Positions 20,294 to 33,202 of a stretch of DNA of 34,428 nucleotides are shown in pieces (the first letter of the stretch is position 1; each line of letters begins with the position of its first letter). Where the stretch lies: contig JAUIIC010000014.1 of the NCBI GenBank assembly GCA_030431935.1, positions 1 to 34,428 of the forward strand, written 5' to 3'. This stretch comes from Alphaproteobacteria bacterium (GTDB taxonomy: Bacteria > Pseudomonadota > Alphaproteobacteria > Rhodobacterales > Rhodobacteraceae). The notes beneath the pieces are model-generated. The model was given only the letters and a program-made list of their open reading frames with translations. It was not told where the DNA came from and searched no databases. The position numbers were made by a program, and so were the translations under genes.

Positions 20294-20368
20294 GGCCCGT
20301 TCGTCTATCGGTTAGGACGCCAGGTTTTCAACCTGGAAAGAGGGGTTCGATTCCCCTACGGGCTGCCA
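20294..20368 (+). tRNA. tRNA-Glu (anticodon UUC), integration site of the island
   Basis: 75 nt with encoded CCA. Acceptor GGCCCGT/ACGGGCT (terminal G-U pair), D-arm TCTATCGGTTAGGA, anticodon stem CCAGG/CCTGG with loop TTTTCAA placing TTC as anticodon, and T-arm GGGGTTCGATTCCCC. The last 15 bases recur at 33188, so the gene's 3' end is the attachment core and the tRNA stays complete after integration. Confidence 0.97.
20354..20368 (+). other. attL core, 3' end of tRNA-Glu
   Basis: CCCTACGGGCTGCCA, identical to 33188-33202. It spans part of the T-arm, the acceptor strand and CCA, the usual core used by P4-type integrases. Confidence 0.88.
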
Positions 20369-20387
20369 TATTTCCGCGCAACCTATT

Positions 20388-20404
20388 GAAAAGCCTAGCT
20401 TTTC
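20388..20404. terminator. Small hairpin after tRNA-Glu
   Basis: GAAAAGC-CTA-GCTTTTC, a perfect 7-bp stem, 20 bp beyond the tRNA. It may end tRNA transcription, and lies within the island. Confidence 0.35.
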
Positions 20405-20456
20405 TGCCGTGGCCTTGCTTCTACCCGCCAAAACGCTTGCCATCCCCTGCGGACCT

Positions 20457-20467
20457 AAACGGAACAA
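20457..20467. promoter_or_regulatory. Possible integrase arm site near attL
   Basis: AAACGGAACAA also occurs at 33082-33092 near attR. GTGATAC follows here (20469) and recurs at 33144. Such sharing between the two ends is expected for arm-type integrase sites. Confidence 0.4.
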
Positions 20468-20606
20468 CGTGATACAGATTGGTGCGGCAGGCTGCCGCAC
20501 CCCTACCGCCTAGCATGGTTCGCCCCGCGCCCTCCCTGCGGCCACCCGCCTACCCGCTGCTGGTCTCGGTGTCGGTTATCCTGCCCGCCCGAGGCGGGAG
20601 GCACCG

Positions 20607-20822
20607 ATGAGCAGACGACGGCAACGCGGCAAGTCGCTGGACCTGATCCCTAAGGATCGCGCGGCATGGGCGGCGGAGATCTGGCAGGACCGCGAGGAGG
20701 TCGCGCGCACCGAGGTCGGGGCGTGGATGCTGCGCGAGGCGGCGGCGATCCTCGGCGAGCCTGAGGAGGCCGTGGACGCGCTCCTCACCGTCTACCGGGG
20801 CGAGCCGCCAGACGCGCCCTGA
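20607..20822 (+). CDS. Small hypothetical protein
   Basis: 71 aa (MSRRRQRGKSLDLIP…) with GGGAGG six bases before the ATG. A basic N-terminal tail is followed by helical, acidic sequence (AAWAAEIWQDREEVARTEVGAW in part). No domain recognised. First island gene beside the tRNA and one of only two good plus-strand genes in the island. Could be a small DNA-binding or antitoxin-like protein, but nothing in the sequence proves that. Confidence 0.6.
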   Translation: MSRRRQRGKSLDLIPKDRAAWAAEIWQDREEVARTEVGAWMLREAAAILGEPEEAVDALLTVYRGEPPDAP

Positions 20823-20896
20823 GGGGCGCTCTGCGGCCCCGAGGCTGTCGGCGGCCTCCGAATGCCGGATGGGGCGTGGTGGCCGTCATGGCGGCG

Positions 20897-21334
20897 CTAA
20901 GCGGCTCGGTGGCGGGCGTGAGGAGGAGGACCCGCCCCTGCCATGCTACGGCCCCGCGTCGGCTCCTCGCCGCGCTCGACCATGCCGTTCACCGTGCGCT
21001 CGATCACGCCGGGATCGGCGCGCTCGGCGTCACGGAGGCGGCGGGCCTCGTGGATTTCGTCGCGGCGAAGGCCGAGGGTGTTGGAGGCCGCAACACCCTC
21101 CTCTCGGTGCTGGTTAGCACCAAGACGCGCCACCTCCCCCCGCTCCTGCGCGGCATCGTATTCCTCGGCCAGCCGCATTTCGGCCCGCGCGCGGTTGGCA
21201 AGCGCATGGGCTTGCGCCCAGTGGACCTCAGCGATCCGATCAGGGCGGGAAGCATCTTGACGCCCAAGAGCGGCCTCGCACACCCTGCCATTGCCGGTGA
21301 GGAAGGAGGTGAAGATGAGGCTCACAACGATCAC
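20897..21334 (-). CDS. Hypothetical coiled-coil protein with N-terminal hydrophobic segment
   Basis: Up to 145 aa from a GTG at 21334. A hydrophobic N-terminus (VSLIFTSFLTG) precedes long charged helices (NRARAEMRLAEEYDAAQERGE). The part EARRLRDA…VIERTVNGMVERGEEPTR is clearly homologous, in the same reading frame, to the segment around 22969-23085, which argues that this frame is or was coding. The last 20 residues (GRSMAGAGPPPHARHRAA) look like frameshifted sequence, so the gene may be broken at its end. It overlaps the divergent 21315 gene by 20 bp. Overall shape recalls phage spanin or lysis accessory proteins, but only weakly. Confidence 0.45.
   Translation of the reverse strand: MIVVSLIFTSFLTGNGRVCEAALGRQDASRPDRIAEVHWAQAHALANRARAEMRLAEEYDAAQERGEVARLGANQHREEGVAASNTLGLRRDEIHEARRLRDAERADPGVIERTVNGMVERGEEPTRGRSMAGAGPPPHARHRAA
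20956..21066. repeat. Copy A of a roughly 110-bp paralogous segment
   Basis: Starts GCGTCGGCTCCTCGCC and includes GGCGGGCCTC. Aligns along its length, same orientation, with 22969-23085. Together they flank the 21315 gene and the Mrr gene. Confidence 0.75.
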
Positions 21335-21701
21335 GATGGGCGCGGCGATGATGGCGCAGGAGGCAGGGGCGACGCCCTTCGAGGGCGTCTATGACCGTGA
21401 CTACCAGAGATGCCTGCGGCCCGCGTCCGACAGCCGCGTGGTGTTCTCCGGCGACCTCATGGAATTCTGGGAGGGCGGGTGCGCGCTATCCAACCCGACC
21501 GTGATCCGCGACATGCCAGACGCACGCCTCTATGACGGAGACTGCGGTGAGGAGGACTACAGGTTCCGGCAGCGGATCATGGTGATGCGGATCGACCGGA
21601 GATACGAGCAGCCAAGCAACGCGGACCTAGCCATCATCCGAAACGGCACGGTGGCTTTCTACACCACCTGCCCGCCGGGGACGACGATCTACGGCCAGTG
21701 A
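21315..21701 (+). CDS. Small hypothetical, possibly exported protein
   Basis: 128 aa from ATG 21315, which has an almost ideal AGGAGGTG five bases upstream. The N-terminus (MRLTTITMGAAMMAQEAGATPF) is weakly signal-like. The rest holds four cysteines (about 31, 50, 72 and 115), suitable for disulfides if exported, and a possible strand-rich fold (RVVFSGDLMEFWEGGC). No family recognised. It lies head-to-tail against the end of the convergent Mrr gene, 24 bp apart, and inside the direct-repeat-flanked cassette. Confidence 0.68.
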   Translation: MRLTTITMGAAMMAQEAGATPFEGVYDRDYQRCLRPASDSRVVFSGDLMEFWEGGCALSNPTVIRDMPDARLYDGDCGEEDYRFRQRIMVMRIDRRYEQPSNADLAIIRNGTVAFYTTCPPGTTIYGQ

Positions 21702-21725
21702 TAGGACGCGGCGCCGTCACGCGGC

Positions 21726-22751
21726 CTAGCTGCCCGATAGGTCGGGCACATATATCTGCTTGAGCGGGATCATCGAGCGGTAGCGCGGCGAGAGCCGGGC
21801 GTAGTTCTCTAGCACCAACTCCACGAAGTCGTCTCCGTCGATGAGCCGGAGCTTGGGCCGGTGGCGTTCCAGATCAATCGACTGGCGGCTGTATGACCCG
21901 AGCGAAATGAAAAGGCCGAACTCCCCTTCGCCCAAGGTGCCCAGCAACTGATCAACCTCGGGGCGGGGAACTTGGTCTGTCTTGCGCTTGCACTGAACCT
22001 TCAGGATCGGAGGCTCAAAGCCCAGCTTGTCGCGGTGGGCGATCACATCAACGCCGCCATCGCCTGACCGCTGTGTGACGCGCGCGGTGTAGCCCATGCA
22101 TTCCAGCAGGTGGGCGACAAACTCCTCGAAGTCGTAGCCCGAGAGCTTGTTCATGATCTGGCGGATCACGAAGTCGCCGGTCGTTATCTCGGCCTGCTGG
22201 GAGACGGCGACCGTAGCCGTGTCGTCATCCGGGGTTTCTTCCGGCACGCCTTCCGCTGGACCTGCATCTTCCGGAGCGGCCATGCCGATCTTGGCAAGGA
22301 ACTCCCCCCGGTTTCCTTGGATCAGGAAGACAGTGATGAAGGCCCCGATCTCGTTCAGGGCACTCTGGCTGAAATCGCTGCGGGGGAAGTGACCTAGCCA
22401 CTCAACCTGACGCCGGTTTGGGTAGTCATCCGGGTCATCCGCGACATGGTCGAACGCCCCGGTGAAGCGCCCGATGTTGACCATGCGGTCGTTCTTCGAC
22501 GGATAGACTACGATGTCGCCCGCCTGCATTTCATGGGTGAAGCGGAACAGGATACCTGCGTCGACCGGCCGCGACCCTGCCTTCTTGTCCGGGTAGTGTT
22601 GTGCCAATGCGATCTTGAGGGCTTCACGGTCGGGATACTGGCGCAGATCACCGAGTGCCGTCCATCCGATGGCAACATACCCGTTTTCAAGCGGGCGGTC
22701 TCCAACGTGCGCGCCCATGTGGACGCCCCAAACACTCGGGTGCTCGGTCAT
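21726..22751 (-). CDS. Mrr-type restriction endonuclease with modified-base-reader-like N-terminus
   Basis: 341 aa. The C-terminal part (from about residue 200) is an Mrr catalytic domain of the PD-(D/E)xK fold: LSGYDFEEFVAHLLECMGY, GDGGVDV with Asp 235, and VQCKRK with Gln 253/Lys 255, then EVDQLLGTL and GLFISLGSYS. Residues 1-160 carry GYVAIGW, GDIVVYPSKNDRMVNIGRFTG, a pattern I associate with EVE/PUA-like or related base-reading domains of restriction systems. A linker of acid and proline residues joins them. A type IV-like, modification-dependent role is inferred: no methyltransferase gene is nearby. The start overlaps the upstream ORF as ATGA. Confidence 0.87.
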   Translation of the reverse strand: MTEHPSVWGVHMGAHVGDRPLENGYVAIGWTALGDLRQYPDREALKIALAQHYPDKKAGSRPVDAGILFRFTHEMQAGDIVVYPSKNDRMVNIGRFTGAFDHVADDPDDYPNRRQVEWLGHFPRSDFSQSALNEIGAFITVFLIQGNRGEFLAKIGMAAPEDAGPAEGVPEETPDDDTATVAVSQQAEITTGDFVIRQIMNKLSGYDFEEFVAHLLECMGYTARVTQRSGDGGVDVIAHRDKLGFEPPILKVQCKRKTDQVPRPEVDQLLGTLGEGEFGLFISLGSYSRQSIDLERHRPKLRLIDGDDFVELVLENYARLSPRYRSMIPLKQIYVPDLSGS

Positions 22752-23020
22752 GTCGCTCCTCCTCCATTGGCGCCACCTGAGGTCCTCGCCTTATTGAGCC
22801 AGAACAGTCTGGCGAGGATTTCGTAGTCTGTCAGCGCCCCGGCCCGCCAGTCGGCATCCTGACCGTAGGGGTCGACCACCGTGGTGTCGAGCGCGGCGCG
22901 GACATGACCAAGCCGCGCCGTGCGCGCGGCACATGGGTTCGTCAGCATCAGCCTTTTCAGCGCCGCCCGCGTCGGCTCCTCGCCCCGCTCCACCATCTCG
23001 TCCAGCGCCTGCTGGATCAC
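22748..23020 (-). pseudogene. Small ORF coupled to Mrr, N-terminally truncated relative of 20897-21334
   Basis: Open for 90 codons from a GTG at 23018-23020, ending in ATGA overlap with mrr. Residues VIQQALDEMVERGEEPTRAALKRL match VIERTVNGMVERGEEPTR of the paralogue near 21000. Upstream, the same frame reads EARRMRDA then meets two TAG stops where the paralogue reads ERA, so the original longer gene is interrupted. The remaining part may still be translated: its stop/start overlap with mrr and its novel C-terminus (DWRAGALTDYEILARLFWLNKA) look maintained. There is no good ribosome site at the GTG; an in-frame ATG (MVERG) is an alternative. Confidence 0.55.
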
Positions 23021-23085
23021 GCAGGGCTGCTAGCGCTACGCATCGCGCATGCGGCGGGCCTCTTGAAGGTCTTTGTCGGTGTGTC
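22969..23085. repeat. Copy B of the roughly 110-bp paralogous segment
   Basis: GCGTCGGCTCCTCGCC…GGCGGGCCTC, same orientation as copy A at 20956-21066. It contains two in-frame TAG codons absent from copy A. Confidence 0.75.
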
Positions 23086-23106
23086 GAGCGAGTTTGACGG
23101 TCGCGC

Positions 23107-23838
23107 TCAGCGACGGACGGAAAGAGCCTCCTTCAAGTCCTCGACCGTCCACCACGGCCGCGATGCGTGCACCATTCGATGGCAGTTTGCACAGAGAAGG
23201 ACCAGATCGGCCAGCTTGGTCGTCTCGCCCGCAGCCAGTTCCGATACAGGCTTGGTGTGATGGCATTCGATAAATCCGCCTCCCCGCTCGCCATAGGTGG
23301 CATGGAAGTCGAAGCCGCACGCCTCGCAGCACAGATGCCCATGTTGCTTCAGGTAGGCCGCCTTCTTGCGCTTCACGATGGTCGCGTTCCGCTCACGGTA
23401 CCGGTGCATCCGGGTTAGGAGCTGTCCTTCGACGGCTTCGGTCAAATCGTCCTCGGGCAAAAATGGCGCATCTTCTGCCGTTGCTACCTGCGTCACGTCG
23501 AGGATCGAGGCCACCACCTTCTTTAGAGCAGTCGGGTTGTCGGCAAACTCAGCCCAGACGACCTCTTCGAGCTTGTTTCCCCGGATCAGACCCTTGGTGT
23601 TGTGGTTCGGGTCATGGGCGCGAAAGTTCAGGAGTTTCATCGACACGCCGTTGGCATTGCGGAGCGTGTCAGAGCCCGTCAGGCCTAACGCCTTGGCGAC
23701 ATGGCTGATCTTGGCCGTAAGGCCGAGCACACCGTTTCCCGTAGGCGAAAAATAGTCGTCCGGATTGTCCAAGTAATAGTCCAGAGCCACGAGAAGCTCG
23801 TCGCGGGTCCATGGTGGATTGCGCTTCGTCTCTGCCAT
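23107..23838 (-). CDS. HNH endonuclease
   Basis: 243 aa. The C-terminal third is an HNH/His-Me domain with zinc ribbons: CCEACGFDF (cysteines 171 and 174), the catalytic histidine pair in ECHHTKP (193-194), and LLCANCHRMVH (cysteines 216, 219; Asn 218; histidines 220, 224). The N-terminal 130 residues are a separate domain (WTRDELLVALDYYLDNP, and SMKLLNFRAHDP), a layout seen in McrA-like and other stand-alone restriction HNH proteins. Reading: a DNA-cutting defence nuclease, possibly modification-dependent. No partner methylase. It is followed by the small Mrr-coupled ORF, so all may be on one leftward transcript. Confidence 0.88.
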   Translation of the reverse strand: MAETKRNPPWTRDELLVALDYYLDNPDDYFSPTGNGVLGLTAKISHVAKALGLTGSDTLRNANGVSMKLLNFRAHDPNHNTKGLIRGNKLEEVVWAEFADNPTALKKVVASILDVTQVATAEDAPFLPEDDLTEAVEGQLLTRMHRYRERNATIVKRKKAAYLKQHGHLCCEACGFDFHATYGERGGGFIECHHTKPVSELAAGETTKLADLVLLCANCHRMVHASRPWWTVEDLKEALSVRR

Positions 23839-23987
23839 GCACGGACACTAGCAATGAGGTCGACGTTCCCGCCAGATGTATTCAGCTCCTAGAGGCTTCT
23901 CAACGTCCTTTGGCAGTTGGTGGCGGTTGGTGTCCTCGTCGCCGATCAGGGCCAAGGCCTTGGCCTCATTCTAGCGTGCACCCACAA

Positions 23988-24572
23988 TTACGACCAGAAC
24001 CGGGCCGCGTCTGCCCGATGCTCGCCCATCTGGCTCTCGACGGTAAGTGTTGTAACGCCCGCGCCGTGGGCGATCTGTTCGAGGATGCCTGCGGTTGTCA
24101 GCGCGACGGCGAAGACGGCGTTGAAGGTCGGGGGTCTGCGGCCGGGGTCCATCTGCGCTAGATGCGCGATCTGCTTGTGGCGCATGTGGCTGACAAGATC
24201 TAGGTCGGCCGCCCCCTCGGCCGCACGGAAGCGGACAATGGCGGCTTCCAGATCGGCGGGACGTGGCGTGCTGGACAGCGCCTCCGCCCCGGTGTTCTCG
24301 ATATACTCGACCATGGCTCGCAGGTGTCGGTCAGATGCCTTCCGCACTGGCAGCCAAGCGCGGATGGCCTTGCCGATCAGCGCCTCCAAGAGCACCTGTC
24401 GAATGGCCGTCGCTGTGCGCCCGGCGCGCGCCTCGTTGATGGACGCCACCACCTCGGGCGCGTTCCCCGCCTCAATAATGGCGACGTAGCGGTGCAGGTT
24501 CACGGCGTCCGTGAATGCGACAAGGGCCGCGTCCCGAAACTCCGCCTCGTCGCTGATGCCCGCCTTCGGCAT
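23988..24572 (-). CDS. HEPN-motif protein, AbiU2-like candidate RNase
   Basis: 194 aa, all-helical in appearance, starting at ATG 24572 (MPKAGISDEAEF) with GGAG upstream. Residues 127-139 read VSHMRHKQIAHLA, which contains R131-x5-H137, the RX4-6H signature of HEPN ribonucleases, in the R(N/H)K.IAH form I recall from AbiU2-like proteins. The preceding helices (LLEALIGKAIRAW, LRAMVEYIENTG) fit the four-helix HEPN bundle. A role in abortive infection or as a toxin is inferred; no nucleotidyltransferase or antitoxin partner is adjacent. The frame stays open upstream to 25163 through the repeat region, so a longer product cannot be excluded. Confidence 0.65.
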   Translation of the reverse strand: MPKAGISDEAEFRDAALVAFTDAVNLHRYVAIIEAGNAPEVVASINEARAGRTATAIRQVLLEALIGKAIRAWLPVRKASDRHLRAMVEYIENTGAEALSSTPRPADLEAAIVRFRAAEGAADLDLVSHMRHKQIAHLAQMDPGRRPPTFNAVFAVALTTAGILEQIAHGAGVTTLTVESQMGEHRADAARFWS

Positions 24573-24659
24573 GATCCGGCGTCTCCGTGTTGCTCTGCCC
24601 GGCACCCAATGTCGGGCACCGCCCCGATCCGGCGTCGAGGGTAGACCCAGCCTCGTGTG

Positions 24660-24905
24660 TTCGGCAACGCGGGGGTCCACGCTGGGCCGGTTCAGGATCA
24701 CCAGCGCGTCGCGGACGGCGTGGCCGTCCTTGAAGGCGCCGCCGAGGAAGCGGCGGATAGCTGGCTCGCCTGCGCCGTCCTTAGCGGCGAAGCCAAAGCC
24801 CTGCCGGTTCCCGAACCAGTGGCACAATTCAGCCTCGCCAATCCGCGAGGCTGCCCCCTCCCACCCCATCGCCAGCACGCCATCGAGATAGGCTTCCGTT
24901 TCCCA
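24660..24905 (-). pseudogene. Module copy R2 (…AYLDGVLAMGW…SVDPR)
   Basis: Reads AYLDGVLAMGWEGAASRIGE…LCHWFG…IRRFLGGAFKDGHAV…LNRPSVDPR on the minus strand. The ends match copy R1 (24970-25464) exactly or nearly so, while the middle differs at many bases. It has no start of its own and is in frame with the HEPN gene downstream. I do not recognise the protein family. Most likely a fragment of a duplicated gene, though an in-frame fusion to the HEPN gene is conceivable. Confidence 0.5.
24669..24758. repeat. 90-bp exact direct repeat, copy A
   Basis: Identical to 25237-25326 over 90 bp by reading; it begins GCGGGGGTCCACGCTGGGCC and ends AAGCGGCGGAT. It encodes the conserved tail FLGGAFKDGHAVRDALVILN… of the module. 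Confidence 0.88.
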
Positions 24906-25421
24906 ACCATGCAGGCATTTCTGGCTCGCGAATTCGCCAGCCAGTTCAGCCCCACCCGTGGCGGAAAGGTCAACTAGCCGCACGCCTGTCGCCAGACCAC
25001 TGAACAAGGGTGTCCTCGCCAATCCGCGAGGACGCCTCCTCCCGCCCCATCTCCGACACGCCTTGCGGCCGAACCACGAAGCCAATTCGGTCTCGCCAAT
25101 CCGCGAGGCCGCCCCTCCTAGCCGAGCGCAGCAGCGCGGTTCGGCAGGTCGCGCGCCCGACATGCGGCGGTCCGCCCTCCCAGTTCATGCTCGCCAATTC
25201 GCGAGCACGCCATCTCCCACTTGAGCGCCCGGCGATGCGGGGGTCCACGCTGGGCCGGTTCAGGATCACCAGCGCGTCGCGGACGGCGTGGCCGTCCTTG
25301 AAGGCGCCGCCGAGGAAGCGGCGGATGGAGCCTTCTCCTGCGCCTGACGCTGCGGCGGTGCAGAAGTTGCCCTTGCTTCCGAACCATTCCATCAGGTCAC
25401 GCTCGCGGATGCGCGAGCGTG
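24831..25421. repeat. Array of six palindromes with conserved core and covarying stems
   Basis: Hairpins at 24831-24852, 24921-24944, 25012-25033, 25089-25110, 25188-25207 and 25398-25421. Inner stem CTCGC/GCGAG, loop CAATCC or a variant. Outer stem pairs differ yet stay complementary: AGC/GCT, GTC/GAC, TG/CA, CACG/CGTG, GGT/GCC (one wobble) and CTGG/CCAG (one inner mismatch). Flanks are also shared: CCGAACCA plus CAATTC before the better copies, and CCTCCCACCCCATC-like sequence after them. Spacing of the first five is 90, 91, 77 and 99 bp. On the minus strand the core reads SRIGE or SRIRE in different frames. Confidence 0.85.
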
Positions 25422-25464
25422 CCTCCTCCCACCCCATCGCCAGCACGCCATCGAGATACGCCTT
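24970..25464 (-). pseudogene. Module copy R1 and trailing degenerate units
   Basis: The minus-strand frame reads AKAYLDGVLAMGWEEARSRIRE…LMEWFG…IRRFLGGAFKDG…SVDPRIAG and continues to a stop at 24970. It opens inside the DUF6362-like gene, and its only starts (GTG 25446, ATG 25437) have no ribosome site. After the module it passes out of frame across two further hairpin units, then in frame through MGREEASSRIGEDTLVQW. This looks like a truncated gene followed by partial copies. Function unknown. Confidence 0.5.
25237..25326. repeat. 90-bp exact direct repeat, copy B
   Basis: Matches 24669-24758 with no difference that I could find. The two copies are 568 bp apart (start to start) and bracket five of the six palindromes. 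Confidence 0.88.
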
Positions 25465-25498
25465 CGCCTGCTTGACGCAGAGCAGCGCGTGCTGCGGC

Positions 25499-26032
25499 CT
25501 AGCGCGGCGGCACGCGGCTGATCGTCAATCCGACCGCGATCAGCGACAGCGCCCGATCCTTCCACCGATAAGCCAGCGTCCGGTTCAAGCCGCGCTCCCG
25601 GCAGATCGGCGCGAAGCCCCGGCGCGCGGCCTGCGCCGCGATCCACGCCTGTAGCGCCCGCGCGGCGTCCGGGTGGCGCGGCGCGACGTAGCGCGCGGGC
25701 CAGCGCAGCGCGGCGTCAAGCTGATCGAGACGGGCGGCGGGCAGCATCCTGTAGTGCAGGCGCTCGGCCTCGTGTTCCTCCTCCTTCTCGTCATCGAGAT
25801 CGGCCCGCTCGGGCGGGCCGCCGAAGGCCTCGATGTGCTCGTGAAGGGACAGGGGCGCGTCATGCAGGCGCGATCCGACGAAGCCGAGCGGCCCGGCCCG
25901 GCCGCCTGCGTGATAGAGCCAGCGCGCGGCCTCGATCAGTTCGGCCTCGACGGTCTCGGGCGTCCAGCCGGGCGCCCCGACGGGCAGCGCCGATCCGGGC
26001 ACGCGGCGGGCGGGCATCGAAGCGTCGAACAT
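25499..26032 (-). CDS. DUF6362-like phage protein with C-terminal helix-turn-helix
   Basis: 177 aa from ATG 26032 (MFDASMPARR), with GGGGAG nine bases upstream. The pattern WTPETVEAELIEAARWLYHAGG, a central stretch ending in LDQLDAALRWPARYV, and the C-terminal GFAPICRERGLNRTLAYRWKDRALSLIA fits the DUF6362 family of phage and mobile-element proteins as I remember it, though it is longer in the middle (an acidic insert DDEKEEEHEAE). The C-terminal part looks like a sigma-like helix-turn-helix. Likely a small regulator or terminase-associated DNA-binding protein; exact role unknown. Confidence 0.65.
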   Translation of the reverse strand: MFDASMPARRVPGSALPVGAPGWTPETVEAELIEAARWLYHAGGRAGPLGFVGSRLHDAPLSLHEHIEAFGGPPERADLDDEKEEEHEAERLHYRMLPAARLDQLDAALRWPARYVAPRHPDAARALQAWIAAQAARRGFAPICRERGLNRTLAYRWKDRALSLIAVGLTISRVPPR

Positions 26033-26604
26033 GGCGCGGGCTCCCCTGCTGATGGCAGGAGGATAGAACCAACGCGGCCCCTTGTCAGGCGTCGTTTTGC
26101 AGAAATACCCGGACGCTCCCAGAACAAAGCAAACCGAGTTTCGAATTTTGCAAAAAATCGAGGACATACGGGGCGGCGCCCCGCGTGGCTCCTGTCGCGG
26201 CCCATACGGTCCCTAAAGGGGGTCGCGCCCCTCTCTCCGCCCCGTCCAGCCCCGTCTCGCCATTCCGGGTAGGGCGAATGCCGCGAACCGACTTGGGGCT
26301 CCACGGCCCCTCTGAGCGCGTCTCTGCGGGTCCGGCCCGTCCGCGCGCTTGCGCACAGATCCCGATCAGTCGGTCAGGGGAAACTGGCAAGAGGATTGTG
26401 CAGGAACAGGGTGGGGGTCTCAGGGAAGGGGGCACTCTGGGCGTGACGGGCAAAGACGGACAGGTGGCCGGTCAGAAGTGTCCGACAGGCGACGGCAACG
26501 ACCGAGCCGGTGGCATCAGCGGCAGATCACCGGCCGGGGATTGGGCCTTCATCCCACTGAGGCCCGCGTAGGCGTCTGGCGCAGAAAGAGATGGGGATCA
26601 GGAT

Positions 26605-26629
26605 CGGGGCGGGCTTGTGGCCCGCCCCG
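26605..26629 (-). terminator. Strong hairpin downstream of the small-gene operon
   Basis: CGGGGCGGGC-TTGTG-GCCCGCCCCG, a perfect 10-bp stem with a 5-base loop. It lies 150 bp past the end of the leftward operon at 26777. No T-run. It could end that transcript. Confidence 0.4.
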
Positions 26630-26663
26630 GCCTCGTCGCCACGCCCGGAAAGGAGACCCGAAA

Positions 26664-26729
26664 ATGGCCGCGACGCCTCGGTGTTTTGCGGCACCGCCGA
26701 GTGGCCGGATCACTTCGCCATGTCCATGA
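26664..26729 (+). CDS. Possible 21-aa peptide
   Basis: ATG preceded by AAAGGAG at good spacing. Encodes MAATPRCFAAPPSGRITSPCP and stops. The ribosome site is as good as any in the island, but the ORF is short and GC-biased, so it may be chance. Confidence 0.25.
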   Translation: MAATPRCFAAPPSGRITSPCP

Positions 26730-26776
26730 GGCGGGCGGATCAACCCACAGGCCCGGCCTGTCGCCGAGCCCGCCGA

Positions 26777-27031
26777 TCAGGTGTCGGCGAGGTCACGCGC
26801 CAGCGACGCGAGCAGCCGGGCGGCCTGCTCGGGGCACTCGCGGCCGATCATCGCGCGGGCGAGTTCGACCTTAGCGCGCTGGTCGGCGCGGGTCGTCGCG
26901 CGGCACTCGACGGCGCGGTCGAACGCGTCCCAGCCGCGCGCGTCGGCGGCGTCGGCGTGGGCGTCGTCGGGCGCCGACAGCGCGGCGGCGAAGGCGTCAG
27001 CGTAGGTGTTGGCGAGTTGGGTGGGGGTCAT
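26777..27031 (-). CDS. Small hypothetical helical protein
   Basis: 84 aa (MTPTQLANTYADAFAAAL…) with AAAGGA nine bases upstream. Two or three amphipathic helices, many Ala, Asp and Arg residues, one cysteine in ECRATT and one in RECPEQ. No family recognised. Last gene of the leftward run that starts at 29560, 73 bp after its neighbour. Confidence 0.6.
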   Translation of the reverse strand: MTPTQLANTYADAFAAALSAPDDAHADAADARGWDAFDRAVECRATTRADQRAKVELARAMIGRECPEQAARLLASLARDLADT

Positions 27032-27104
27032 GTCGGCGGTCCTTTCAGGTTGGGGTCAGCGGCGCCCGAGGCCGAGGTCTCGGGCGCGGTGATCGCGCTT
27101 ACGG

Positions 27105-27482
27105 TCATCGGTCGCGCGACCCGTTGACGGCGCGCAGCGCCGACGCCCACACCCGGTCAATGGGCGTCTCGGCGGCGGGTGGGGGGCCTTCGGCCATCGT
27201 GGCTACACCTTCCTCGCGCCGCTCGATGCCCGGGATGCTGGCCTCGGGCTGGATGGGCGCCGCGCGCAGAAACTGACGCGCGGGTTCCACCGCCATGTCG
27301 GTTTCCAGTGCGAGCTTCATTGCCACGTCCCACCGCCCGGCGGCCTCGGGGCTTTCGAGTATGCCCTTGATCCGCGCGCGCTCGGCGGCTGCGCCTTCGG
27401 CCCGCCCCTCTGCGCGTGCGGCCTCGCGGGCCTCGGCCGCCGCCGCGCGGCGCGTCGATGTGAAGCTGGATTGGCTGAACAT
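27105..27482 (-). CDS. Small protein resembling a phage scaffold/protease tail region
   Basis: 125 aa, ATG with AAGGAG upstream. An Ala/Arg/Glu-rich coiled coil (residues 12-35) leads into AERARIKGILESPEA, then MKLALETDMAVEPARQFLRAAP. This ER.RI..IL…A..LA..TD…A..FL.AAP pattern is one I know from the C-terminal regions of phage prohead proteases and scaffolds, where it lies after the peptidase. Here no protease precedes it. A scaffold-like or capsid-remodelling role is a guess from that likeness; satellites are known to carry such proteins, which makes it worth testing. Confidence 0.6.
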   Translation of the reverse strand: MFSQSSFTSTRRAAAAEAREAARAEGRAEGAAAERARIKGILESPEAAGRWDVAMKLALETDMAVEPARQFLRAAPIQPEASIPGIERREEGVATMAEGPPPAAETPIDRVWASALRAVNGSRDR

Positions 27483-27523
27483 TGTCGATCTCCTTTCTGT
27501 GTCCGACCGGTGCCTTGGGCACG

Positions 27524-28060
27524 TCAGCGCGCGAGCACGGCGTCGCTGGCGAGCGTCGCCTCCGGGCTCGCGTCGGCCCGGCGAAGGACCGCCATACCGG
27601 CCGCTTCGCAGTCCCTGACCAGCGCTTCCTCGGCCATTTCCGCGTCGAGGATCTGCCGATCCAGCCGGGCGAGTTCCGCGTCCCGTTCACCGGGGTCGAG
27701 GCCGGGGTCATCGCCGTAGGTTTCGGCCAGCAGTGCCTTCATCACGTCCGCGACCGCGCCAGTGTTCGAAGCCAAGATCAGCGCCAGCAGCTGGTCGCTG
27801 GACAGCGACGGCAGCCTCGGGCTACGGCCATCCGCCGGGCGGCAAAGGCTCGCAAGGTTGATCGTCGCCAGCGACTGCTCGGCCATCCGGGCGAGGCCGT
27901 CAGAGATAGCGGCCTGCGCGAGCGCGAGAGGCACTGGTCGGCTGGCGATCTGGTCGCGCTGGTCGAGAAGCCGGACCCGAAGGGCGCGCAGTTCCTCGAC
28001 TGCGGCGCGCGCCTCGGTCGCGGGCGAGGTCGCCGATTTCTTGCTCTTGCGCGCGATCAT
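27524..28060 (-). CDS. Hypothetical protein, unknown function
   Basis: 178 aa beginning MIARKSKKSATSPATEARAAVEELRALR. A basic tail, a heptad-like helix, a central part (LPSLSSDQLLALILASNTGAVADVMKALL) and an acidic C-terminal helix (DPGERDAELARLDRQILDAEMAEEALV). The start overlaps the preceding stop as ATGA, so translation is coupled. No domain recognised. Lacks cysteine-rich or catalytic patterns; likely structural or regulatory. Confidence 0.65.
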   Translation of the reverse strand: MIARKSKKSATSPATEARAAVEELRALRVRLLDQRDQIASRPVPLALAQAAISDGLARMAEQSLATINLASLCRPADGRSPRLPSLSSDQLLALILASNTGAVADVMKALLAETYGDDPGLDPGERDAELARLDRQILDAEMAEEALVRDCEAAGMAVLRRADASPEATLASDAVLAR

Positions 28061-28464
28061 CTGATGACCCCCTGTCCGGTGCCGACGACTGCGCGCGACC
28101 CGTCATCGGTCTCGATGGGCAGCGGCAGGCCGTGTTCCCTCGCGAACTTCAGCGCGGCGTCGTAGACGCGCCCGGCGGCCTGACTTTGTGCGCCGGCGGC
28201 GTCGCGCTGTTCAGCGCAGCGCTGCTGCTCGTCGACAATGGCCGCCACTTCCGCGTGGAGACGGGCGATCTCATCGCTCGTTGTCTTGTCGCGGTGCCCG
28301 ATGCCGTCGAGTTCCAACCGCTCGATACGGCCTAGCGCGCGCTGACGGCGCTGGCCGAGGTCCATCACGCGGTCGGACAGCGCCCTGACGCAGGCAAGCT
28401 TCTCCTGCCGGATGAGGTTGAGCGCGGCAAGCCGGGCGGCGCTGTCGAATTGCGTTTGGTCCAT
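28057..28464 (-). CDS. Hypothetical coiled-coil protein
   Basis: 135 aa from ATG 28464 (MDQTQFDSAARL), chosen because AAGGAGG lies six bases upstream. Mostly helical with heptads (LIRQEKLACVRALSDRVMDL, IARLHAEVAAIVDEQQR), then YDAALKFAREHGLPLP. No known family. Lies 11 bp after the previous gene and overlaps the next as ATGA, firmly within the leftward operon. Confidence 0.68.
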   Translation of the reverse strand: MDQTQFDSAARLAALNLIRQEKLACVRALSDRVMDLGQRRQRALGRIERLELDGIGHRDKTTSDEIARLHAEVAAIVDEQQRCAEQRDAAGAQSQAAGRVYDAALKFAREHGLPLPIETDDGSRAVVGTGQGVIR

Positions 28465-28475
28465 GTGTGCCTCCT

Positions 28476-29006
28476 TCAACTGACGCCACCATCGGGCCGA
28501 ACGCTGGCCATCTCCACGGGGTCAAGATGGCCAGCGGTCTCTGCCGCGAGGATCGAGCGGAGGCGACGGGCCGACAGGGCGGCGTGGCCCTCGCTCACCA
28601 ACCGATGCAGGGTTTGCTCGGGCTCCCGCGACGGCGTCATGCTGGCGCGCTCGGCGCGCCGCCATGACGCTGCCAACATCTTGGCCGCCGCCTCATGCCC
28701 TAGGTCGGGCCAGCATCGCGCCCGCAAGCCGCGCAACGCCGCGTCTCGGCGATCCTGACGGAGACGGCGCCGTGCATGGGACCAGCCGGGGCCAGCGACC
28801 CCGAGGACCGCTTCCAGCGACCCGGCCTCTGGGCCGTGCAGCCATCGAAGGATCAGGACGCCCGCCCGCCGGGCGCCGGGGTCGCGCGACACCAGCCCGA
28901 CCTCGGCAAGAGCGACGAGATCGACCGCCGGGCCGAGGCCGTCATCGGCCTCGCCCCACTGCGGCTTGGTGGCCGAGGCGTGAAGCAGGGTGTCCCGCGC
29001 GCCCAT
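28476..29006 (-). CDS. Hypothetical protein
   Basis: 176 aa from ATG 29006 (MGARDTLLHASATK), whose A is shared with the previous TGA. Mostly helical with aromatic and basic motifs (ILRWLHGPEAGSLEAVLG, GWSHARRRLRQDRRDAALRGL) and a C-terminal part SEGHAALSARRLRSILAAE. It may bind nucleic acid given its charge, but nothing diagnostic is present. Coupled to both neighbours in the leftward operon. Confidence 0.65.
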   Translation of the reverse strand: MGARDTLLHASATKPQWGEADDGLGPAVDLVALAEVGLVSRDPGARRAGVLILRWLHGPEAGSLEAVLGVAGPGWSHARRRLRQDRRDAALRGLRARCWPDLGHEAAAKMLAASWRRAERASMTPSREPEQTLHRLVSEGHAALSARRLRSILAAETAGHLDPVEMASVRPDGGVS

Positions 29007-29560
29007 CAGAAGACCCCCGGACGGATCCTGACGTGTTTCCCTTGGACCTCGATGAGCCGAAGTTCGAGCAGACGGCGCCGGGCGCGGTTGAATGACTGAC
29101 ACATCGCGTTGGGCTGCTGAGACGCATGCCGGCGCATGTCGTCGAAGGCTTGCCGCCACTCTGCCACGGGAACCAACCGATGCCCGCCGGAAACGCGGCG
29201 AAGGGCTTGAATGGCGATCGCCTGTGACGGCGACAGATGGACCGGCGGACGGGACACAACGCCACGAAGGGCGGCGGGGGCGAGCGGTCGCACGGTCCCG
29301 GCTGATCCTACCGAGGCGACGGCGGAACAGCGAAGACGCTCCTCGTGATCGAGGACGGTGCCGGTCCATGCGGCCAAGGCGCGACGTGCCTCGGCCTCAC
29401 CTACGCGACCGATAAGGTCGGAACGAATGGCGGCCTGCCAAGCCACGAGGCGACGGGCGCGCTCGGTCGTTCCGAGCGCGGCCCCTTCGACAAGGTCGAG
29501 GGCAGCCGCCTCAGGGTGCAGCCACGGCCAGCGGTCGAGGGGAAAGGCGACGCAGGTCAT
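29006..29560 (-). CDS. Hypothetical protein with winged-helix-like C-terminus
   Basis: 184 aa from ATG 29560 (MTCVAFPLDRWPWL), with GGGGA eight bases before. The N-terminal half is helical (AARRLVAWQAAIRSDLIG-like). The C-terminal 75 residues (LSPSQAIAIQALRRV, SFNRARRRLLELRLIEVQGKHVRI) look like a winged helix ending in a hairpin wing. First gene of the run 29560-26777, directly beyond the iteron-like region, so it could be a replication or regulatory accessory protein; inference only. Confidence 0.65.
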   Translation of the reverse strand: MTCVAFPLDRWPWLHPEAAALDLVEGAALGTTERARRLVAWQAAIRSDLIGRVGEAEARRALAAWTGTVLDHEERLRCSAVASVGSAGTVRPLAPAALRGVVSRPPVHLSPSQAIAIQALRRVSGGHRLVPVAEWRQAFDDMRRHASQQPNAMCQSFNRARRRLLELRLIEVQGKHVRIRPGVF

Positions 29561-29584
29561 TGCGCATTCCCCTGAACACCGTTC

Positions 29585-29774
29585 CGGACAGACCGCCGGG
29601 TGGCGGGACAGACGGGACGCGACAGACCCCCCCAATAAGGGGGTCTGTCGCGCCCTCCCCCGGCCGGGACAAACCGATGAAAACTCCGTTCTGTCTTCCG
29701 TGTGTCCCGGTTTGTCGCGTGTCCCGAAGCCGAGACACACCGACCGCCTTTCCGATGTGTCCCGGTCTGTCTCG
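29585..29774. promoter_or_regulatory. Iteron-like repeats beside the RepA-like gene, candidate origin or operator
   Basis: TGTGTCCCGGTTTGTCGCG (29701) and TGTGTCCCGGTCTGTCTCG (29756) agree at 17 of 19 positions, 55 bp apart. Inverted and partial forms follow: CCGGGACAAACCG (29664), GCGGGACAGAC (29604), CCGGACAGACC (29585) and GTGTCCCGAAG. They fill the gap between the RepA-like gene and the next operon. Confidence 0.6.
29618..29652 (-). terminator. Perfect 14-bp hairpin within the iteron-like region
   Basis: CGCGACAGACCCCC pairs with GGGGGTCTGTCGCG around CCAATAA. The arms contain the same GACAGAC word as the iterons. It could end the RepA-like transcript, or act in replication. Confidence 0.5.
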
Positions 29775-29776
29775 CC

Positions 29777-30742
29777 CTAAGAAGCGGCATAGGACCACTC
29801 CTCGACAAGGTTCCCGCGCAGCCCTGCACGGTCTATCATCCGCTGGACCGACTTCCGCTCCGAAGCGGCCTTTAGGCCCGAGCCCAAGAGCCCTTCGCCC
29901 CGCGCGGCATTGATCGCCTCGGTCAACGTGAACGGATCGTCACCGAGCCGCTGTGCCAGCCTCGCCGCCTTTGCGTCGGCCTCCTGTGATTTCCGCTGCG
30001 CCTGCGCTCCCAGCACTTCCGCCGGAGCCGTGGGCTCCCCCTCAATCACCGCTTCGTCCGAGCCGTCAGCCGTCGCGAGACTGGCAACGCGGAAACGCAG
30101 TTCCTGCCCTGTCGGCACCGAGTTGGCCTTCACGACTGCCAGCCGGGAGAAGCCACGGCCCGAGCCCACGCGAAGTTCGACATCGACAGCGGCGACCAGC
30201 GCCGTCGAGCCCCGCGCCGTCCCGCCGCCCTTGGCGAGGTGGTGGATGAGGATCATCGCAGCGCCGGGGAAGGCGCGGGATATTGCCGTCAGCGCAGAGA
30301 CCGCGCGACCTACATCCCGTGCTGAGTTCTCGTCGAGCCCGAGGATGAGGCGCGCGACTGTGTCGACGACGATTAGGCGCGGATTGGGCGTCACGGCGCT
30401 GATCTCGCCGACAATGGCGTCCCGCTCCGTGGCAAGCTGTGGTGCCCAATCGGCGATGCTTACGAATGCCGGATCGGCGCTGGCGGCCAGCAGGCGCCGC
30501 TGTACGGCGCCTGCGCGCTCGGCGGCAAGATAGACAACGTGGCCCGCTCGAACCTCGCGGTCGAGCCACGGCATACCCCGCGAAACGGACGCGCTGAGTG
30601 ACGCGGCAAGCGTCGATTTCCCGGCGCCGGGCGCGCCTGTCAGTAGCCCGATCTCGCCAGCGGCCAGAAGCCCGGACACGATCTCCTGCCGTAGTGGCGG
30701 CGGGCCGAGGTCGGCCAGCCGCCGGAAGCGCCCGCTATTCAT
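29777..30742 (-). CDS. RepA-like RecA-fold ATPase/helicase
   Basis: 321 aa from ATG 30742, which overlaps the AlpA stop by 8 bp. Walker A GAPGAGKST (36-44), Walker B RLIVVDT with Asp 127, and MILIHHLAKGGGTARGST (about 165-182), the sensor/arginine region typical of the AAA_25/RepA hexameric helicases of plasmids and phages. The C-terminal 90 residues are helical (DPFTLTEAINAARGEG), perhaps a winged helix. It would drive replication of the excised island. The iteron-like region lies directly after it. Primase is not evident. Confidence 0.85.
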   Translation of the reverse strand: MNSGRFRRLADLGPPPLRQEIVSGLLAAGEIGLLTGAPGAGKSTLAASLSASVSRGMPWLDREVRAGHVVYLAAERAGAVQRRLLAASADPAFVSIADWAPQLATERDAIVGEISAVTPNPRLIVVDTVARLILGLDENSARDVGRAVSALTAISRAFPGAAMILIHHLAKGGGTARGSTALVAAVDVELRVGSGRGFSRLAVVKANSVPTGQELRFRVASLATADGSDEAVIEGEPTAPAEVLGAQAQRKSQEADAKAARLAQRLGDDPFTLTEAINAARGEGLLGSGLKAASERKSVQRMIDRAGLRGNLVEEWSYAAS

Positions 30743-30953
30743 CGGCCGCCTCCTGCACCGCCACGGCGCGGATCGCGTCGGCCAGCGCGCGGTCGCCTTC
30801 CCATTTTTCGAGGTCCGAGAGCGACCAGCGGGTGCATTTCGGGCTGAGGTGGACCGGGGGCGGGAAGCCATCGTGGCCTTCCCGGACCCACCGCCAGACG
30901 GTGTTTCGGCTAACGGCATAGCGCCGTGCGACCGCTCGATCAGATAGGAACAT
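30735..30953 (-). CDS. AlpA-like/MerR-type excisionase or regulator
   Basis: 72 aa. The N-terminal DRAVARRYAVSRNTVWRWVRE is a winged helix-turn-helix of the AlpA/MerR excisionase type, followed by GFPPPVHLSPKCTRWSLSDLEKW, where the R.(W/F)…DLE.W ending is characteristic. AlpA proteins activate integrase or act as directionality factors in P4-like islands. Translationally coupled to the RepA-like gene. An inverted repeat lies 48 bp upstream of its start. Confidence 0.87.
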   Translation of the reverse strand: MFLSDRAVARRYAVSRNTVWRWVREGHDGFPPPVHLSPKCTRWSLSDLEKWEGDRALADAIRAVAVQEAADE

Positions 30954-31000
30954 TGCGGGGCCTTTCGTTCAGCTACGCCCCACGAGTAACCCCTGCCCCG

Positions 31001-31025
31001 CTAAGGTGTCGCGGACAGTACTTAG
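31001..31025. promoter_or_regulatory. Interrupted inverted repeat upstream of alpA
   Basis: CTAAG g TGTC gcg GACA gta CTTAG, spanning the gap between the 229-aa gene and the AlpA gene. Candidate operator or weak terminator. Confidence 0.45.
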
Positions 31026-31715
31026 TTATTTTTTGACTAGTTCTGTCCTTTTCTTCAGGTTTCGCTTGATCCGCTTCAGGGCTCGTTCGGGAAGATCATC
31101 ACCGCCACCCAGCGCTTCGTTCAGCGCGCGCAGGATAGCTTCGAAGTCCCGCCAACAGGCCCGGTCGAACCCTTGCCCGGCCCCGGTCCAGACGGCAGCA
31201 AGATCATCGGCCAGCCGGTCGAGCGGATCGCCCGCGAGCGCGTCTGAAAGCGAGCGCGGGCCACCCCCGTCGTCGCCGTGTTCTGCGAGAACCGCAGCCT
31301 CTAGTCGCGCTGCGACGGCGGCTAGGTCATGTAGCCCCACGAATGCCTCGGCGGCGGGGGCAGCAATCTCGCACCACGCAGGTGCGCCTTTCATGGCGCC
31401 GAAATGGGCGAAAAGGCGGTTTAGCCGATCCGAAAGCCGGGCGACATTCTGGACGGCATCCTGAAGCCCTTCTACTACCTCGAAAAGGTCGCCTTGCCTT
31501 GGCCCCTTTGCCCGCGTCCGCGACAGGTCGAAACGAAGTGCAGCCAACTCGACTGCTCGCAGGGAAACAGGGTCGTTTAGAATGCCATCGAACGCAGTAG
31601 CAGCGGCGGCGGCGCCGCCTGTATGATGCAGGGCATCGCGTGCGGCGCGCACCTTCCCGCGCAGCGTAGCCTCCATATGCCGGGCGAGTTCGCTTCCGCG
31701 TGGCTTCTTGCTCAC
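31026..31715 (-). CDS. Integrase-coupled hypothetical protein
   Basis: 229 aa from GTG 31715 (MSKKPRGSELARHM…), overlapping the integrase stop as GTGA. Longer starts run through the integrase gene and are rejected. Mostly helical. A basic C-terminus (RALKRIKRNLKKRTELVKK) suggests nucleic-acid binding. Notable blocks are GDLFEVVEGLQDAVQNVARLSDRLNRLF and FDRACWRDFEAILRALNEAL. I do not recognise a family. Tight coupling to the integrase suggests a role in integration, excision or element maintenance, but this is inference. Confidence 0.7.
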   Translation of the reverse strand: MSKKPRGSELARHMEATLRGKVRAARDALHHTGGAAAAATAFDGILNDPVSLRAVELAALRFDLSRTRAKGPRQGDLFEVVEGLQDAVQNVARLSDRLNRLFAHFGAMKGAPAWCEIAAPAAEAFVGLHDLAAVAARLEAAVLAEHGDDGGGPRSLSDALAGDPLDRLADDLAAVWTGAGQGFDRACWRDFEAILRALNEALGGGDDLPERALKRIKRNLKKRTELVKK

Positions 31716-33010
31716 GTGCCCGCTCCGATCATCGGAACAACGTTGCCGCGCTCCTCGCCACGGAGGAACGCTGCCCAACTTTCCATCATCTGCCGTCGCC
31801 GCTCCACGAGGTCGCTGCGCCGATAGGCGCGCTCGACCTCGCTGCCGACCTTGTGCGCGAGCGCGATTTCGCTCAATTCGTTGGGAAATCCTCGCTCTGC
31901 CGCCCAATCCTTGAACAGGCTTCTAAGGCCATGCGGCACGGCGGGCTGGCCCGACCTTGGGTCTATCCAGCCGGGACGCCCGGCCTTTACCTCGCTATCG
32001 TGCATCCGCCGCATGACGGCGGAAACGGACATATCCGACAGCATTCCGCCGCGCGGGCCGGGGAAGATGAGGTCGGTCCCGGCAAAACGCGGGAGGCTGC
32101 GCAACAGCGCGACAGCGGACGCAGGCAGCGGGACGCGGTGCTCGCGCTCCATCTTCATCCGTGAGGCGGACACGATCCATAGTCCGGCTTCGAGGTCGAT
32201 CTCTCGCCACACCGCACCGCGCACCTCGCCACTGCGCGCAGCCGTCTGGACAAGGAATTCGAGCGCCCGCGCCGCCATTCCGTCTCGGCCCCTGAGATCG
32301 ACGAACCATGCCGGACCATCGGCCTGCGAGAGTGCAGGCCAGTTGGACTTCTTCGCCACCCGAGAGGGCTTCGGCAAAAGCTGGTCAAGGTTGCCGCGCC
32401 ATCGGGCTGGGTTTTCCCCCGTCCGGTGACCTGCGACCGTTGCCCACGAAAGCACGTTCTCGACCCGCCCCCGAACCCTTCGGGCAGTGTCGGTCGTGGT
32501 AAGCCAGTGCGGGTGAAGGGCGCGGAGCACGTCTTGCGTGCCGATCTCCGAAACCAACATGTCGCCGATCTCGCCACACACCATGCTCTCGACACCTGCG
32601 CGCCACTGTTTGCGGTGCTTCTCTGAGCGAAACTCGTGGGACTTTTCTGCGAAGTATCGGTCGAGTGCGTCGTTGAAGGTCAGGCCCCGCCGCTGTTGCG
32701 CGGCCAGCGCCGCCCGCGCCGCCTTGCGCTCCTCTATTGGGTCGGTGCCCTCGCGGATCATCGCCTTTGCCCGACGCGCGCCCTCGCGTGCATCGGCGAG
32801 GCCAACTTCGGGATAGCTGCCCAAGCCAAGCGAACGACGTTTCTCACCGACGACGCTTCGCAGGAGCCACGACTTCGCGCCGCCGGGGGTGATCTGAAGC
32901 AGCAGCCCGGCGACCCCGCCGACGGCGATCGTGATGTTGCGGTCGTGCCCGCCGGGATGTTTGGCGCGCTTAACGTCCAGCGCGGTCATTTCCTTGGCTA
33001 CCTTCGGCAT
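31712..33010 (-). CDS. int: P4-type tyrosine integrase
   Basis: 432 aa from ATG 33010, with AAAGGAGG upstream. The N-terminal DUF4102/arm-binding region (LQITPGGAKSWLLRSVVGEKRRSLGLG) is typical of P4-like integrases that target tRNA genes. Catalytic residues are visible: Arg 259 (TAARSGE), His 360-x-x-Arg 363 (PHGLRS), His 386 (LAHKVG) and Tyr 396 (RAYRRSD). It lies 177 bp inside attR. It reads away from the attachment site and is followed without a gap by the 229-aa gene. Confidence 0.96.
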   Translation of the reverse strand: MPKVAKEMTALDVKRAKHPGGHDRNITIAVGGVAGLLLQITPGGAKSWLLRSVVGEKRRSLGLGSYPEVGLADAREGARRAKAMIREGTDPIEERKAARAALAAQQRRGLTFNDALDRYFAEKSHEFRSEKHRKQWRAGVESMVCGEIGDMLVSEIGTQDVLRALHPHWLTTTDTARRVRGRVENVLSWATVAGHRTGENPARWRGNLDQLLPKPSRVAKKSNWPALSQADGPAWFVDLRGRDGMAARALEFLVQTAARSGEVRGAVWREIDLEAGLWIVSASRMKMEREHRVPLPASAVALLRSLPRFAGTDLIFPGPRGGMLSDMSVSAVMRRMHDSEVKAGRPGWIDPRSGQPAVPHGLRSLFKDWAAERGFPNELSEIALAHKVGSEVERAYRRSDLVERRRQMMESWAAFLRGEERGNVVPMIGAGT

Positions 33011-33075
33011 TCGGCCTCCTTTGTCGAAGTGGTGGCCTATAACTCCTACCGGCCATCCCGCTTGCCAAAAGAGAT

Positions 33076-33164
33076 GCTACGAAACGGAACAATATACAAC
33101 AGAAGGTTACAAGTGCAGCGCCAGAATGCCCTTATAAACAAGGTGATACGCTACAAATCGGAAC
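33076..33164. promoter_or_regulatory. Direct repeats near attR, candidate integrase arm sites
   Basis: GCTACGAAACGGAAC (33076-33090) and GCTACAAATCGGAAC (33150-33164) agree at 13 of 15 positions. AAACGGAACAA within the first also occurs near attL. The stretch is noticeably AT-rich compared with the flanks, as expected for an integrase/IHF binding region; it also contains the integrase promoter. Confidence 0.55.
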
Positions 33165-33187
33165 GAGATGATGCGGTCGAAACGCGG

Positions 33188-33202
33188 CCCTACGGGCTGC
33201 CA
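33188..33202. other. attR core
   Basis: CCCTACGGGCTGCCA, the distal copy of the tRNA-Glu 3' end. A partial TCGA-containing match before it suggests a decayed T-arm. Confidence 0.85.

Follow-up and report, generated by a model that had tools for sequence, protein, structure and literature searches.

A single-locus array of six related palindromes in a Rhodobacteraceae genomic island, most likely generated locally as a consequence of DNA copying

The island and its cargo

The DNA analysed here (the window, 34,428 nucleotides) is contig C271 of a draft genome from the family Rhodobacteraceae, which comprises 4.03 Mb in 301 contigs and is 84% complete. A 15-bp direct repeat, CCCTACGGGCTGCCA, forms the 3′ end of a tRNA-Glu gene at 20354-20368 and recurs at 33188-33202, and the two copies are the probable attL and attR of an integrative island. 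The minus-strand cargo of this island includes genes for an Mrr-type nuclease, an HNH protein, an AbiU2-like HEPN protein and a phrog_6836 protein, and the palindrome array that we describe sits between the last two.

20354-33202, no strand: integrative island, bounded by the two 15-bp repeats
31712-33010, minus strand: phage-type tyrosine integrase with Arm_DNA-bind_3 and Phage_int_M domains
25499-26167, minus strand: phrog_6836 gene, of a phage-type family without assigned function, upstream of the array
23988-24572, minus strand: AbiU2-like HEPN gene (MPKAGISDE...), downstream of the array; Pfam PF18734 E 0.0035, below the cut-off

The HEPN gene scores 17.3 bits against Pfam PF18734 (HEPN_AbiU2), under the cut-off of 26.8, and its translation contains RHKQIAH, which fits the Rx4-6H motif defined for HEPN proteins (PMC3710099). 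A second AbiU2-like protein of the same genome (L071, C13:13766-14215) reaches 25.1 bits, just under the family cut-off, and is encoded without such an array.

Elsewhere in the island, the Mrr-like nuclease at 21726-22751 (minus strand) strongly matches the PADLOC candidate group PDC-S02 (E 1e-133), and a gene at 29777-30919 (minus strand) encodes an AAA_25 (RepA-type) helicase resembling phage primase/helicase proteins, in view of which the island may replicate after excision. Furthermore, a 90-codon ORF at 22748-23020 (minus strand) matches the end of a type IIG restriction-modification model and is overlapped by the second copy of a 100-nt partial duplication (20953-21052 and 22966-23065, 77% identical). 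The type IIG fragment and its partial duplicate at 20953-21052 suggest that the island cargo near the array is broken.

Six units with paired arms

The original prediction, made from the sequence alone, described six palindromes in an array around a CTCGC/GCGAG core. We found all six, as the following units.

24811-24865, minus strand: palindromic unit U6, core 24834-24849
24902-24956, minus strand: palindromic unit U5, core 24925-24940; a 24-bp palindrome with one mismatched pair
24992-25046, minus strand: palindromic unit U4, core 25015-25030
25069-25123, minus strand: palindromic unit U3, core 25092-25107
25167-25221, minus strand: palindromic unit U2, core 25190-25205
25379-25433, minus strand: palindromic unit U1, core 25402-25417

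Successive core starts are 91, 90, 77, 98 and 212 bp apart. The core is exact in five of the six units, and U5 has CTCGC/GCCAG, a single mismatch. The pattern is dense in the window, with 15 occurrences versus 4.3 expected (largest shuffle 12), and the units are 62-81% identical to one another. The common flanking words that had been predicted are real but uneven: U1, U4 and U6 have 28 nt upstream in common on the minus strand, whereas the stretch common to all six is the hairpin plus about 12-20 nt only, and U2, U3 and U5 share little more. Loops and flanks vary among units. The units lie in three frames, and no single ORF spans them all.

In a gap-free alignment of the six units (55 columns), the 9-bp stem is 94% paired, with both-side changes at three pairs. 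At the first three outer stem positions, 17 of the 18 cells pair (16 Watson-Crick and one wobble) and one is a mismatch; when the 5′ and 3′ arms were re-paired between units in all 720 permutations, 17/18 was reached by the true pairing only (1/720). The covariation score is 0.415; shuffles gave 0.108, with none of 500 reaching the observed value, and sliding the alignment gave no more than 0.096. The other 5-bp hairpins in the window have no consistent outer-arm pairing of this kind. For the minus strand, the folding z-score is -4.5. The pairing statistics confirm the predicted compensatory change, in which outer pairs differ between units and still pair: the six units are related, and the pairing of their arms is not chance.

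A calibrated covariance model of the unit returned six matches in the own genome, all at this array. It gave no match above noise in the 100 relatives and 395 family genomes searched, the matches of 24-29 bits in the relatives being isolated and poorly aligned. The bare core pattern matched singly at two more places in the own genome, both isolated and low-scoring, and single matches in two viral contigs (L033 and L063) have one core each and no array. DNA searches of phages and plasmids gave no match, and the BLASTN matches in the relatives are short GC-rich stretches of unrelated genes, for example RlmB-type methyltransferases. Across the own genome, the 100 relatives, the 395 genomes of the family and the viral-contig, phage and plasmid sequences, we thus found no further instances, the outcome that the original prediction had named as indicating chance plus local duplication. 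It argues for local duplication, even though the pairing itself is not chance.

A part-duplicated, coding-like segment

The array is set within a partial duplication of 237 nt (24662-24898 and 25230-25466), which is coding-like on the minus strand, a context that the original prediction did not contain.

24669-24890, minus strand: copy 1 of the putative orphan coding segment, with a coding-like 78-aa frame at 24660-24893; holds the palindrome at 24834
25237-25458, minus strand: copy 2 of the segment, with its frame, at 25228-25461, shifted; holds the palindrome at 25402
24759-24856, minus strand: variable middle of copy 1, 98 nt, 58% identical to the middle of copy 2
25327-25424, minus strand: variable middle of copy 2

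Over the 222 aligned bases of the two copies, the ends of 90 and 34 nt are identical and the 98-nt middle is 58% identical. The first and last palindromes, U6 and U1, fall within these variable middles. Changes in the middle fall evenly on the three codon positions (15/12/14) and thus show no sign of purifying selection on the protein there. By codon-position GC and codon-usage scores, the minus strand looks coding at about 24641-24964 and at 25190-25504, in different frames; the signal is absent from the DNA between these two stretches, where the other four units lie in other frames. The identical 90 nt (24669-24758 and 25237-25326) also holds a 7-bp perfect hairpin, GGACGGC-CAC-GCCGTCC, and adjoins the variable middle.

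No credible homologue of the 78-aa frame turned up among 395 genomes of the family, 385 of the class, species-level genome contigs, viral contigs, phages or plasmids, nor did the frame have a match above cut-offs in Pfam or PHROGs or a credible match in PDB. Weak tblastn and HMM matches in the family and class genomes look like chance when translated, and the two matches in species-level genome contigs are to a Halorutilus tyrosine-recombinase-like protein and to an out-of-frame stretch of an ABC permease gene. NCBIfam CspD matches to copy 1 (E 0.01, 16 bits versus cut-offs of 115 to 152) align solely around WFGNRQGFGF, do not recur in copy 2, and were taken as chance. A structure model of the frame (two sequences, mean pLDDT 68, helices) retrieved nothing credible from PDB or BFVD. 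The 78-aa frame is an orphan.

We propose, with moderate confidence, that an orphan gene in the cargo zone of the tRNA-Glu island, repeatedly part-duplicated, has decayed to leave the array, and that replication template switching has kept its quasi-palindromes symmetrical. An orphan gene segment with a quasi-palindrome would have been part-duplicated several times within the island; two copies would have retained coding-type composition, in different frames, and the four intervening units would have lost it. Template switching would copy one arm of the quasi-palindrome onto the other, so that arms vary yet for the most part pair, and the same hairpins would favour the duplications. Such switching homogenises short inverted-repeat arms and yields multi-base changes inside genes, with adjacent paired changes and spacer inversions seen also in coding genes (PMC8604942, PMC7202029). 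Because it copies arm to arm, it can give paired arms without selection for a fold. The original prediction took compensatory change as the mark of selection; the compensatory pairing is real, but may have arisen by template switching without it.

The duplication, the coding signature, the differing frames, the paired arms and the lack of further copies elsewhere are observed; both the decay of the gene and the role of template switching in the arm pairing are what we infer. Decay of a repeatedly part-duplicated gene is the simplest account of the coding-type composition, the change of frame between copies, the missing coding signal in the middle of the array and the absence of the array elsewhere. 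The three frames without a spanning ORF, the lack of a homologue and the other fragmentary cargo nearby support it. Two observations count against it. Six units with differences at most flanking positions have a paired stem, and selection on the hairpin would have the same outcome. Furthermore, simple decay leaves the 90-nt identity beside the 58% middle unexplained, unless gene conversion has recently acted on the ends or the middle has been exchanged.

Alternative explanations and known repeat systems

The main rival is that selection acts on the hairpin itself, which would serve the island at the DNA or RNA level (as an operator, a recombination or replication site, or a transcript hairpin), with the inner stem recognised and the outer stem needing only to pair. 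We regard this as possible though doubtful. The covariation in excess of shuffles and slides, the minus-strand folding and the retention of the hairpin while the flanks drift are consistent with it. On the other hand, the own genome and its relatives contain no other instance, loops and flanks are variable, two of the units lie inside coding-like sequence, and six units from one locus cannot tell selection from arm homogenisation. The structured RNA repeat of the original prediction is still conceivable, although an Rfam search of the array gave no match.

A palindromic mini-element of the REP or Rickettsia type, inserted several times in this one locus, partly in a coding segment, and read as SRIGE-x-EL, is unlikely. 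The shortness of the stretch common to all six units and their occupation of three frames speak for such insertions, but all six copies fall within 0.6 kb, the rest of the 4.0 Mb genome (84% complete) has none, no target duplications were identified, and no transposase gene was recognised among the island proteins scanned. The CGTC REPs of alpha-proteobacteria have a constant CGTC/TGTC/CCTC tag at the stem foot and a CCA tail (PMC3733652). The array resembles them in its stem of 8-9 bp, its loop of 4-6 nt and its alpha-proteobacterial host; unlike them, its six units have neither tag nor tail in their flanks, it is not dispersed in high copy, and loop and flanks differ. With Rickettsia palindromic elements, to which the original prediction had pointed, it has in common a palindrome within coding-like DNA in several reading frames, but it occupies a single locus, with a shorter common unit and no genome-wide family. 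Membership in either group fails on dispersal, all six matches being at the array.

Exchange of cassettes is very unlikely as an account of the locus. It would make the two copies constant-end forms with an exchangeable 98-nt middle, and the units between them silent donors. The identical outer parts flanking a 58% middle, the even spread of changes over codon positions and the partial units between the copies fit this arrangement, whereas the donor tracts lack a base-for-base match to the copies and no expressed full gene was identified. We keep it because the 90-nt base-for-base identity beside the 58% middle is unexplained. Hairpin-associated exchange in an orphan gene, with the units as donor cassettes or recombination sites and a diversified protein segment, is highly unlikely. 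If active exchange does underlie the pattern of identical ends and variable middle, the mobile island would contain a small generator of diversity.

The gene order makes a type III-like toxin-antitoxin attractive, in which the array would supply an RNA antitoxin to the AbiU2-like HEPN protein: the HEPN gene, which carries the Rx4-6H motif (RHKQIAH), lies directly downstream on the same strand, and there are known AbiF HEPN toxins that have structured RNA antitoxins (PMC12373285). Like ToxI and CptI arrays and the AbiF RNA, the locus has structured repeats upstream of a same-strand putative RNase toxin gene. We nevertheless consider it extremely doubtful. Near-identical tandem RNA repeats are a required feature, and here the units have diverged to 62-81% identity, have coding-type composition and lack an Rfam match. 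In addition, the HEPN match itself is under the Pfam cut-off, and nine other AbiU2-family loci are without this array; in eight of them a search for a similar array of repeats of any kind also found none.

Attachment sites of the integron attC type, another original suggestion, are not supported: the array has serial imperfect palindromes as attC arrays do, but 24640-25490 contains no RYYYAAC or GTTRRRY core site, the spacing is too short for cassettes, and no integron integrase (IntI) was found, the sole integrase found being the phage-type one. CRISPR arrays have near-identical direct repeats, unique spacers and cas genes; units of such limited identity do not qualify, and the main island proteins scanned include no cas gene.

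Taken together, these comparisons indicate that the array most likely arose locally, as a side effect of DNA copying, rather than representing a novel genetic system. If it is of this ordinary kind, compensatory stem changes can occur where neither an RNA system nor a recombination system is present, and covariation-based discovery calls for caution when it draws on a few units from a single locus. The decayed, part-duplicated gene that we propose is closest to template-switched short inverted repeats: it differs from them in having six related units side by side, and is like them in its short arms, small loop, multi-base paired changes and position inside coding DNA.
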